DNA of 64,000 bases from Fusobacterium sp. JB019 (GTDB taxonomy: Bacteria; Fusobacteriota; Fusobacteriia; Fusobacteriales; Fusobacteriaceae): NCBI GenBank assembly GCA_030673965.1, contig JAUTCN010000003.1, positions 62,001-126,000 on the forward strand. The letters run 5' to 3'. Shown piece by piece: positions 31,726-34,823 of this stretch (position 1 is its first letter; each line of letters begins with the position of its first letter). The notes below the pieces were generated by a model. It made no database searches. It was not told the DNA's origin and saw only the letters and a program-made list of their open reading frames with translations. Made by a program: the position numbers and the translations under genes.

Positions 31726-32490
31726 TTATTCTCCAAACCATTTAACAGATATTTTTTTATACGTTCCATCCCTCTTCATTTCATCAATTATTCTATCTAT
31801 CTCTTCTCTTAAAGATACATCTTTTTTTCTAAAAGCAACCCCAGAACCATCTCCCTCTAATAAGCTTTCACTAGACATAGCTAATGTTTTATTTTTAGAA
31901 TTATAATATCCCCCTGCTGATGATGCTGCTATAACTGCATCTAATCTTCCTGCCTCTAAATCCATTAAAGATTCTACTAAAGTTCCATACTTCTTAACTT
32001 TTTTCACCTTCGTAAACACTGAAGAATTTTGAAGAGCATAATCTCCTGTACTTCCAAGCTGCAATCCTACAACTTTCCCAGCTAACTGATCAACTTTTGA
32101 TATTTTATTATCTTTTTTAGTAAAAATAACCTGCCCACCTTGATAATAAGGTTTTGAAAAGGAAGCTTGTTTTTCTCTTGCTGGGGTTATAGACATTCCA
32201 TTCCAAACCATATCTATTTTCCCGCCATTAAGCTCAAATAAAATACCATCCCACTCACAAGGTTTAAATTCAACTTTAACTCCCATCCTTTTAGCTGTTT
32301 CTTTTGCTAAATCAATATCAAATCCTACTATTTCACCATTTTCATCTCTAAATCCCATTGGTGCAAAAGTATCATCTAAACCAATTATAAACTTTCCTTC
32401 TTTTTTTACTCTAGCTAATGAATTTTCTTTAGAAAAACTTACCGTGTATAATCCTAAAACTAATATAATTAATGCTATTATTTTTTTCAT
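31726..32490 (-). CDS. polar amino-acid ABC transporter binding protein, copy 2
   Basis: A 254-residue SBP_bac_3 protein. Signal peptide MKKIIALIILVLGLYTVSFS with no lipobox, hence soluble periplasmic. Ligand-binding motifs FAPMGFRDENGEIVGFDIDL (about 43-62), CEWDGILFELNGGKIDMVWN and ITPAREK. It is the last gene of the operon, 2 bases after the ATPase, and paralogous to the first gene at 33760-34530, including a 70-base stretch of identical DNA. The his-type leader upstream of the operon suggests histidine or a related basic amino acid as substrate. Confidence 0.93.
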   Translation of the reverse strand: MKKIIALIILVLGLYTVSFSKENSLARVKKEGKFIIGLDDTFAPMGFRDENGEIVGFDIDLAKETAKRMGVKVEFKPCEWDGILFELNGGKIDMVWNGMSITPAREKQASFSKPYYQGGQVIFTKKDNKISKVDQLAGKVVGLQLGSTGDYALQNSSVFTKVKKVKKYGTLVESLMDLEAGRLDAVIAASSAGGYYNSKNKTLAMSSESLLEGDGSGVAFRKKDVSLREEIDRIIDEMKRDGTYKKISVKWFGE

Positions 32491-32492
32491 TT

Positions 32493-33131
32493 CTACCTCC
32501 TATTTTCTTTTATCTCTTTAATATAGCCTCCATCAAAAACAACTATCCTATCTGATACTTTATTTACAAAATTCATTTCATGACTAACTATAATCATTGT
32601 AATATTACTTTCTTCTCTTAGTTTCTCTATAACATTTAAAACTTCCTTTACCATTTCAGGATCTAACGCTGAAGTTGGTTCGTCAAACAATAACACTTCT
32701 GGATTTCTTGCAAGAGCTCTAGCTATTGCAACTCTTTGTTTTTGACCGCCTGACAAAGTTTTAGGATAAACATTAGCTTTATCTTTTAAACCTACTCTAT
32801 CTAATAACTCAAGTGCTATTTTTTTAGCTTCTTTTTTTTCCATTTTATCAACAACAATTAATGATTCCATTATATTATGTGCCACTGTTTTGTGAGGAAA
32901 TAAATTAAACGACTGAAAAACCATTCCCATTTTTTTTCTATCTGGTATTTTTATTTCTCCATAATTTATATCTTCAAGCCCTATAAGACATCTTAGAAAA
33001 GTTGACTTTCCACCACCGGAAGAACCTATTATAGAAATAGCCTCTCCTTTCTGAATTTCTAAATCTATTCCTTTTAAAACTTGGTCTTCATTATATTTTT
33101 TCTGTAAATTTTTCACCTGAATAAAACTCAT
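32493..33131 (-). CDS. polar amino-acid ABC transporter ATPase
   Basis: 212 residues, short for the HisP/GlnQ family (usually about 240). Walker [10 protein letters not shown] (about 35), Q-loop [16 protein letters not shown], signature [15 protein letters not shown], Walker [16 protein letters not shown] and switch His in [10 protein letters not shown] are all present. The shortening removes only the C-terminal tail. The ATG overlaps the permease stop (TAATG). Confidence 0.95.
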
Positions 33132-33757
33132 TATATCATCACCTTTTCTTCTAGTTTTTTAAATAACCAAATTATAACAACTGACATTAAAAAATATAAA
33201 GCTCCACAAATTGCAAATGGAATTATTGAAAAATCTCTTGTTACAAGTTCTCTAGAATTTCTAAGAATTTCAGCCATTCCTATAGCTGAAACTAAAGAAG
33301 TATCTTTAACTAACGCTATTGCTTCATTTGATAATGGTGGAAGAGCTGTAATTAAAGATTGAGGAATAATTATTCTAATCATTGTTTGCCAGTAACTAAG
33401 TCCTAAAACTTGAGCTGCTTCATATTGTCCCTTATCTATACCTAATATACTTCCTCTAAAAATTTCACAATAATAAGCAGCATAATTTACTACAAATGTA
33501 AGAGTAGCTGCTGAAAAAGCTGACAAAGTAATTCCAACTATAGGAAGACCATAATAAACAAAGAATAATTGTAATAATAGTGGTGTACCCCTAAAAATAG
33601 ATGTGTAAGCCACAATTATATTATTAATTATTCCTTTATTTTTTAATCTCCCTAAAGAAAATAGAATTCCTAAAGGAAGAGAAAAAATCATAGTCATAAT
33701 GTATAGATTAACAGTTAATCCCATACCTTTTAGTATAAATAAAATATCATTTTGCAT
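33131..33757 (-). CDS. polar amino-acid ABC transporter permease
   Basis: About 208 residues from the ATG at 33757. SD GAGGAG lies 8 bases upstream, inside the longer open frame that reaches 33784, and the preceding gene's stop is 2 bases before this ATG. Five membrane segments of the HisMQ/GlnP type with the EAA loop [22 protein letters not shown]. Only one permease gene is present, so the transporter is expected to use a homodimer. Confidence 0.93.
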
Positions 33758-33759
33758 AA

Positions 33760-34530
33760 TTAATTCTCCTCTTTTCCAAACCATTTTTCATAAATTACTT
33801 TAAAAGTTCCATCAGCTTTCATCTCATCTAAAGTATTGTTAATTGCTTCTCTAAATGTTTTATCTTTGTTTCTCATTCCCACACCATAATATTCTTTAGT
33901 TAAAGACTCTGAAGAATAAGTTAAATTATTCTTTTTAGAATTGTAATATTTCCCAGCAACTGCATCAACTACAACTGCATCTAATCTTCCAGCTTCTAAA
34001 TCCATTAAAGCTTCTACATTTGTTGCATACTTTTTAACTTCTTGAATTCTTCCAAAAACTTCACTTTTTTGAACTGCAAAATCTGCAGATCCTCCAAGTT
34101 GTACTCCTACCTTTTTTCCTTCAAGTTCATTTACTTTATCTACTTTATTTTCACGTTTTGAAAATATTATTTGTCCATCTTCAAAGTACGCTTTAGAAAA
34201 AGTAATTTGTTTTTCTCTTTCAGGTGTTATTGTCATCCCATTCCAAACCATATCTATTTTTCTACTTTTTAAATCAAAAATTATTCCATCCCACTCACAA
34301 GGTTTAAATTCAGCTTTTATCCCTAATCTTCCTGCAACCTCTTTTGCTAAATCAATATCAAATCCTACTATTTCACCATTTTCATCTCTAAATCCCATTG
34401 GTGCAAAAGTAGCATCTAAACCAACTACCATCTTTCCTGCTTTTTTAATTTTAGCTAAAGATTTATCTGCTCCAAAACTCATTGTTCCTATCCCTAAAAC
34501 CATAATAATAATTGCTAATAATTTCTTCAT
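33760..34530 (-). CDS. polar amino-acid ABC transporter binding protein, copy 1
   Basis: A 256-residue SBP_bac_3 protein with a cleavable signal peptide (MKKLLAIIIMVLGIGTMSFG) and no lipobox. Same ligand loop FAPMGFRDENGEIVGFDIDL as copy 2. It is the first structural gene after the histidine leader and terminator. SD GGGGGA. Having two divergent binding proteins for one permease/ATPase suggests two related ligands or two affinities. Confidence 0.94.
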   Translation of the reverse strand: MKKLLAIIIMVLGIGTMSFGADKSLAKIKKAGKMVVGLDATFAPMGFRDENGEIVGFDIDLAKEVAGRLGIKAEFKPCEWDGIIFDLKSRKIDMVWNGMTITPEREKQITFSKAYFEDGQIIFSKRENKVDKVNELEGKKVGVQLGGSADFAVQKSEVFGRIQEVKKYATNVEALMDLEAGRLDAVVVDAVAGKYYNSKKNNLTYSSESLTKEYYGVGMRNKDKTFREAINNTLDEMKADGTFKVIYEKWFGKEEN

Positions 34531-34565: not shown

Positions 34566-34603
34566 AAAACAAAAAGCCACTTAGAATATATCTAAGTGGC
34601 TTT
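34566..34603 (-). terminator. attenuator terminator of the histidine leader
   Basis: The minus strand reads AAAGCCACTTAGA-tatat-TCTAAGTGGCTTT followed by TTGTTTT: a 13-bp stem and T-run. It lies about 40 bases before the first structural gene and 100 bases after the leader-peptide stop, exactly where an attenuator belongs. Confidence 0.9.
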
Positions 34604-34638
34604 CTTCCTAAAGAAAAAATGTTAAGATTTAATTCCAC

Positions 34639-34687
34639 CATAGATACAGACTCAAAATTTGTATTTCAATATGAGTCTGTATCTATG
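34639..34687 (-). promoter_or_regulatory. 16-bp leader hairpin with alternative pairings
   Basis: Perfect arms CATAGATACAGACTCA (34687 to 34672) and TGAGTCTGTATCTATG (34654 to 34639). The 3' arm plus next bases, TCTATGGTGG (34644 to 34635), can instead pair with CACCATAG in the His codons (34720 to 34713) or, with one bulge, with CCACTTAGA of the terminator 5' arm. This is the competing-stem arrangement of the enterobacterial his attenuator. Confidence 0.8.
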
Positions 34688-34708
34688 ACAATGTCATTTA
34701 CAAACTCT

Positions 34709-34762
34709 CTACCTATGGTGATGATGTATAATGTTTATTAAACTAAATCCTTTTACTAACAT
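34709..34762 (-). CDS. histidine leader peptide (HisL-like), 17 residues
   Basis: ATG at 34762 with SD GGAG (34769-34772); translation MLVKGFSLINIIHHHHR then TAG. Four consecutive His codons (CAT CAT CAC CAT) directly precede the Arg and stop, as in classical HisL peptides. The leader lies between a sigma-70 promoter and an intrinsic terminator, upstream of an amino-acid ABC transporter. Ribosome stalling at the His codons under histidine limitation would let the operon be read. No T-box could fit: only about 25 bases separate the predicted +1 from this ATG. Confidence 0.9.
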   Translation of the reverse strand: MLVKGFSLINIIHHHHR

Positions 34763-34794
34763 AATTTTCTCCTTTTTTATTAATTGTTGGATAT

Positions 34795-34823
34795 AGAATA
34801 CATCCTATCGTCTTTTTTGTCAA
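34795..34823 (-). promoter_or_regulatory. sigma-70 promoter of the histidine-attenuated operon
   Basis: On the minus strand TTGACA (34823-34818), 17-base spacer, TATTCT (34800-34795); predicted +1 near 34788. The region 34531-34894 between genes is fully used by this promoter, the leader peptide, the hairpin and the terminator. Confidence 0.8.

Follow-up and report, generated by a model that had tools for sequence, protein, structure and literature searches.

The window, a 64,000-nucleotide stretch of a Fusobacterium sp. JB019 contig, carries on its minus strand (34571-34823) a promoter, a 17-codon leader encoding MLVKGFSLINIIHHHHR, a 16-bp hairpin and a terminator, followed by an amino-acid ABC transporter operon. 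The operon opens with the gene for a 256-aa family-3 amino-acid substrate-binding protein (SBP; 33760..34530, minus strand, as are all window features given below) and continues with those for a polar amino-acid ABC permease (33131..33784) and an amino-acid ABC ATPase (32493..33131). The same strand also encodes another substrate-binding protein (31726..32490), which shares 62% identity with the first and probably belongs to the same operon. NCBIfam gave no curated-cut-off match naming the substrate of the SBP.

The promoter, read from the sequence and from a promoter scan, consists of a -35 hexamer TTGACA (34818..34823), a 17-nt spacer and a -10 hexamer TATTCT (34795..34800); taken singly, such a match is at chance level in this AT-rich stretch (four found vs 3.5 expected). 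The Shine-Dalgarno sequence AAGGAG (34769..34774) precedes the leader ORF (34709..34762), which is kept in relatives and whose regulatory His codons form the run CATCATCACCAT (34715-34726). Directly 3' of the stop codon lies segment B (GAGTTTGT..ATGAC; 34693..34707), recognized by covariation and spacing. Segments C (GTCATAGATACAGACTCA; 34672..34689) and D (TGAGTCTGTATCTATGGTGG; 34635..34654), both placed by covariation, flank the C-D loop (34655..34671) and form a perfect 16-bp hairpin (34672-34687 paired with 34639-34654). Segment E (34587..34602), supported by covariation and a terminator scan, comprises the 5' terminator arm AAGCCACTTAGA and the loop TATA, and segment F (34571..34585), supported by the same scan and by pair counts in the terminated state, comprises the 3' arm and T-run. 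Three of the segments have two possible partners: C pairs with B for antitermination or with D for termination, D with C or E, and E with D or F. The terminator with its T-run (34571-34605) is the sole terminator-like site in the region, where shuffles expect 0.0, and it lies 40 nt upstream of the SBP gene start. The leader folds with z = -8.3 relative to dinucleotide shuffles. At gathering cut-offs, no Rfam family matched within the window. The original prediction had listed this promoter, the Shine-Dalgarno sequence, a 17-codon ORF with four His codons, the 16-bp hairpin and the terminator, and all are present; it did not see the key segment B, the scaffold shared with other amino acids, or the likeness to the trpB motif described below.

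Chance is excluded mainly because the element is conserved. A covariance model built from 12 His-SBP leaders (R1) located it ahead of the orthologous SBP gene in some 40 genomes of the Fusobacteriaceae, with the SBP gene directly downstream in 29 of the 30 best fetched loci; the remaining locus is cut off. The leaders of relatives keep the same arrangement with different peptides, and all contain a His run, as in MKREFILLNLATIHHHHHG (L012, a contig of Fusobacterium mortiferum L029), MFSKSFANFITVHHHHHR, MKLVITKNQKNSVTKFHHHHHHR and MYIIFNHHHHR. Thus, the His run and the terminator, whose loss from orthologous leaders the original prediction had named as decisive against it, are both conserved. 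When short His-rich ORFs with a Shine-Dalgarno sequence were sought in some 700 kb flanking SBP homologues, run-type His leaders were confined to the Fusobacteriaceae. A second covariance model (R2), run on 667 kb of sequence around SBP homologues that lie almost entirely outside that family, gave no match at E values up to 0.1, and no leader of this type was found near the SBP homologues of Firmicutes. In the Leptotrichiaceae, SBP leaders (L168, L170, L174, L175 and L204) contain Met, Cys and other residues beside His (SMCHHR), and the SBP there may respond to more than histidine.

The segments can adopt two mutually exclusive folds. In the antiterminator, B pairs with the 5' arm of the hairpin (GAGTTTGT(..)ATGA with TCAT(..)ACAGACTC) and D pairs with E. 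Across 74 elements of all specificities, a set that includes one antisense-match row and is slightly diluted by it, 81% of the B:C and D:E positions are standard pairs, compared with 30-48% for slid partners; there are 159 double changes, and the covariation score was reached by none of 500 shuffles. When only the 12 His-SBP leaders are considered, the figure rises to 97% (vs 19-48% for slid partners), and the compensatory changes include A-U to G-C. The terminated state shows 93% standard pairs. C:D and E:F, and not B:C and D:E, guided the alignment, so the support for the latter two helices is not circular. Among the individual pairings proposed originally, TCTATGGTGG:CCACTTAGA is real and covaries. 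The short ATGAC:GTCAT pairing also exists, but it is only part of a longer helix, the main part of which, GAGTTTGT:ACAGACTC, had been overlooked. The pairing of TCTATGGTGG with CACCATAG in the His codons is present but does not covary: the third base of the penultimate His codon and its partner in D occur as T/A 13 times, T/G 8, C/A 2 and C/G 1, with no tracking, and we rejected this A:D helix.

The median gap to the start of segment B is 3 nt when counted from the stop and 21 nt from the first regulatory codon. A ribosome sitting on the stop would therefore cover B, whereas one stalled at the regulatory codons would leave it exposed. The element combines a short ORF with a Shine-Dalgarno sequence, a cognate codon run before the SBP, an intrinsic terminator with a mutually exclusive antiterminator, and ribosome-compatible spacing, as expected of a leader-peptide attenuator. 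When histidine is plentiful, the ribosome would reach the leader stop and cover B, no more than about 5 nt away; C would then pair with D, and the E:F terminator would form. When charged tRNA-His is scarce, the ribosome would stall at the His run, some 20 nt short of B, which would stay free; B would pair with C, the released D would pair with E, and polymerase would read through. Judging from anatomy, conservation, two-state covariation and the match between codons and genes, we put the probability at about 90% that the window element is an attenuator that senses charged tRNA-His, controls a predicted His importer and belongs to a family with swapped codons. A His leader-peptide attenuator on an amino-acid importer, as originally proposed, is the best reading of a locus that is conserved in about 40 genomes and has two covarying folds.

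The effect of covering B was modeled by equilibrium folding of 69 leaders ended at E, with segment-specific pairs counted while B was free or covered. On average, covering B lowered the number of B:C pairs from 8.7 to 0.8, raised C:D pairs from 4.3 to 10.7 and lowered D:E pairs from 6.4 to 3.0, although the D:E shift runs the opposite way in 12 of the 69 leaders. In the window element, the C:D hairpin contributes -24.6 kcal/mol, more than the -20.6 kcal/mol of B:C and D:E combined, and is retained at equilibrium even with B free; several other His-SBP leaders likewise favor C:D. Switching in the window element would therefore need kinetic control: if the model holds, B:C must form first, trapping C before D is made.

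Histidine as the substrate, which the original prediction had read from the leader codons, gains independent support from sister species. Four genomes of the same genus (G001, G003, G004 and G006) have no leader at the orthologous SBP. Instead, their SBP promoters (L007, L009, L010 and L011) carry TTTAGTAGACTAAAGT or near variants, with a second such site or half-site 3' of a small terminator. These palindromes match cacTTTAnnnnnnTAAAgtg, the published HisR consensus (PMC9413887). All four leaderless genomes encode a TrpR/HisR-family protein (PF01371; TIGR02531 YerC/YecD), which the three leader-bearing ones lack, and a similar palindrome lies upstream of the gene for this protein itself in three of the four (L234-L236). 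Because the bare HisR-type pattern is common in these AT-rich genomes, it is position and co-occurrence that carry weight. In these sister species, HisR-type operators and a TrpR/HisR-family gene stand in for the leader, a compact case, within one genus, of two regulators substituting for each other at one gene. In the genome of the window, a His leader on the same scaffold also precedes the his biosynthesis operon (hisZ, hisG, hisD), and in G005 a HisZ gene of the same type is likewise preceded by one.

R1 also matched elsewhere in the same genomes, where the same scaffold carries other codons before matching genes, the downstream genes being named independently by NCBIfam and Pfam. Asn leaders (NNNNNN) precede asnA; Pro leaders (NPMVP, NPTVP or PIPP), putP; Thr leaders (TTTT), thrS; and Thr/Ile leaders (TTTTIIM), asd. 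Tyr leaders (YYYYY) are found before tyrS and an AGCS symporter, Met leaders (MMMM) before metN, metG and hom, aromatic leaders (WYFYYYF or SWYWY) before DAHP synthase, Trp leaders (WW) before SNF symporters, and His leaders (HHHH) before hisZ or, in Clostridium, hisS. Cognate residues make up a mean of 33% of the leader ends, compared with 8.6% when gene labels are permuted, a value reached in 0 of 20000 permutations. Where family models stay ambiguous, the leader codons predict substrates: His for the window importer, Tyr for an AGCS symporter, and Trp for SNF and ABC systems. The counterpart of the C-D loop, AUUUUGURUUA, is unpaired and conserved in sequence in all family members despite their different specificities.

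Of the 98 Fusobacteriota genomes, 63 contain the family according to R2, as do 5 of 40 genomes picked by way of SBP homologues in other phyla and 4 of 398 sampled from the phylum of a Clostridium. R2 matches below about 42 bits are partly junk (coding sequence plus terminator, as at L180, L201, L202, L203, L207, L210, L214 and L215) and were left unused. The genome of the window has members upstream of the SBP, hisZ, putP (two identical copies), an SNF symporter, asnA and DAHP synthase. Identical inverted copies of a Pro leader with putP lie on one contig (G000:C5:30426-30599, plus strand, and G000:C5:174300-174473, minus strand), reflecting either a recent duplication or an assembly artefact. 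Some leaders of different specificity share peptide outside the regulatory codons: KNTSLVNTFSWCWC (SNF symporter) and KNISLVNTFSWYWY (DAHP synthase) in the genome of the window, MKRFREAMHHHR (SBP) and MKRFREAMCMS (metN) in the Leptotrichiaceae, and FRQLN..MMMLW, which is common to metN and metG leaders. Such peptides are what duplication followed by codon exchange would be expected to leave. We consider it likely that one ancestral scaffold was duplicated through the Fusobacteriota and sparsely into Clostridia, that codon swaps re-aimed it at His, Asn, Pro, Thr, Tyr, Met and Trp/Tyr/Phe, that it is the ribosome-based equivalent of a T-box, and that Rfam family RF04312 is this same system.

RF04312, the "trpB ncRNA motif", matched 16 of 27 tested elements at a low threshold, over its full length and exactly on C:D and E:F. 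The window element aligns across the whole model (1-107) in this way but scores 49.8 bits, below the 59-bit gathering cut-off, and is therefore not filed as a member. An R2 match from a genome of the Clostridia phylum (L240) scores 68.7 bits, above the cut-off; its leader ends in TWQNWRR, and the gene downstream encodes a TrpX-like solute-binding protein. The paper describing the motif (PMC11109978) lists it among eleven strong riboswitch candidates, present in Firmicutes and Fusobacteria before varying genes, "most commonly" an uncharacterized amino-acid ABC transporter, and leaves a classic attenuator open. Like our elements, RF04312 (SRC-39-1) has a P1 hairpin and an intrinsic terminator, an antiterminator in the right shoulder of P1, and varied amino-acid genes downstream; in our elements, that shoulder pairing is the covarying D:E. 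The published motif differs in starting at segment C, without the leader ORF and segment B. Most likely it describes the 3' half of this attenuator family, and the overlap, together with a Trp leader above the cut-off, argues for attenuation by the ribosome over binding of a ligand. What the published description lacked, namely the ORF, segment B and an explanation for its varied genes, is supplied here, offering a mechanism for this riboswitch candidate.

Could the element nevertheless be a metabolite-binding riboswitch, in which P1, the C:D hairpin, binds an amino-acid-related ligand and controls the terminator? The hairpin-plus-terminator layout shared with a strong published candidate and the sequence conservation of the C-D loop speak for it, but no single ligand explains asnA, putP, hisZ, thrS, tyrS, metG and the rest, whereas the codons match each gene; moreover, a translatable ORF with a Shine-Dalgarno sequence lies upstream of the elements, and covariation links segment B to C. 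We therefore regard a riboswitch as very unlikely. Slightly less probable still is a TnaC-like nascent arrest peptide, which would itself sense a free amino acid or the state of the ribosome rather than codon starvation: some non-regulatory residues, such as NTFSW, are common to leaders, yet peptide sequence, length and run position vary widely, and only the matching homopolymeric cognate runs are kept. Direct descent from enterobacterial hisL, whose six-segment A:B, C:D, E:F logic the locus had been said to copy, is the least probable of the three, since the functional analogy and a weak, A:B-like pairing of CATTATACA with TGTAAATG in the minimum-free-energy fold of the window element are set against the absence of any Rfam His_leader (RF00514) match, in the window at the gathering cut-off or even at E values up to 1, the failure of the His-codon pairing with D to covary, and the other codons carried by scaffold homologues, which place its ancestry within this attenuator family.

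The attenuator resembles Proteobacterial ones (hisL, thrL, trpL, pheL) in its codon run, stalling logic and exclusive antiterminator and terminator. To our knowledge, those Proteobacterial leader families do not share one scaffold. The fusobacterial scaffold, in contrast, is used for many amino acids (Asn, Pro, Met and Tyr among them), lies in another phylum and is found before importers too. Two reports describe His-run leader peptides before hisZ, hisS or the his operon in the Bacillus cereus group, Peptostreptococcaceae and Erysipelotrichales, and these low-GC attenuators are presented there for single lineages and for histidine only (PMC2965389, PMC9413887). The T-box (RF00230) is similar in that one scaffold is re-aimed by codon at many amino acids and acts by transcription antitermination; it differs in binding tRNA directly, without a ribosome or leader peptide. 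T-boxes are uncommon in the phylum, occurring in 20 of 98 Fusobacteriota genomes, and the RF00230 covariance model matched nothing in the window; the single match in that genome lies elsewhere, upstream of trpE. The mechanism itself is known, and the family, an attenuator scaffold re-aimed through its leader codons, is previously unrecognized: the literature searched held no description of these leader peptides in Fusobacteriota, and an earlier partial prediction may exist. Leader-peptide attenuation can be a reusable, codon-addressed module, beyond unrelated one-off elements.

Several members stand out individually. At L155:511-1132, aspartate-semialdehyde dehydrogenase is preceded by both a Thr/Ile leader attenuator and a tandem glycine riboswitch. 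Aromatic codons (FWF.YYF) also occur in the leaders at L194 and L195, although the genes that follow, for an iron-containing alcohol dehydrogenase and a PTS EIIC-like protein, have no obvious link to aromatic amino acids. Clostridial leaders ending in FNSQFR (L222 and L224) lie upstream of ABC permeases. Over the family element before the permease at L222:530-751 there is also a sub-cut-off match to Rfam RF02863 (Enterococcus sRNA_2410), which suggests that this Enterococcus RNA may be a leader as well.
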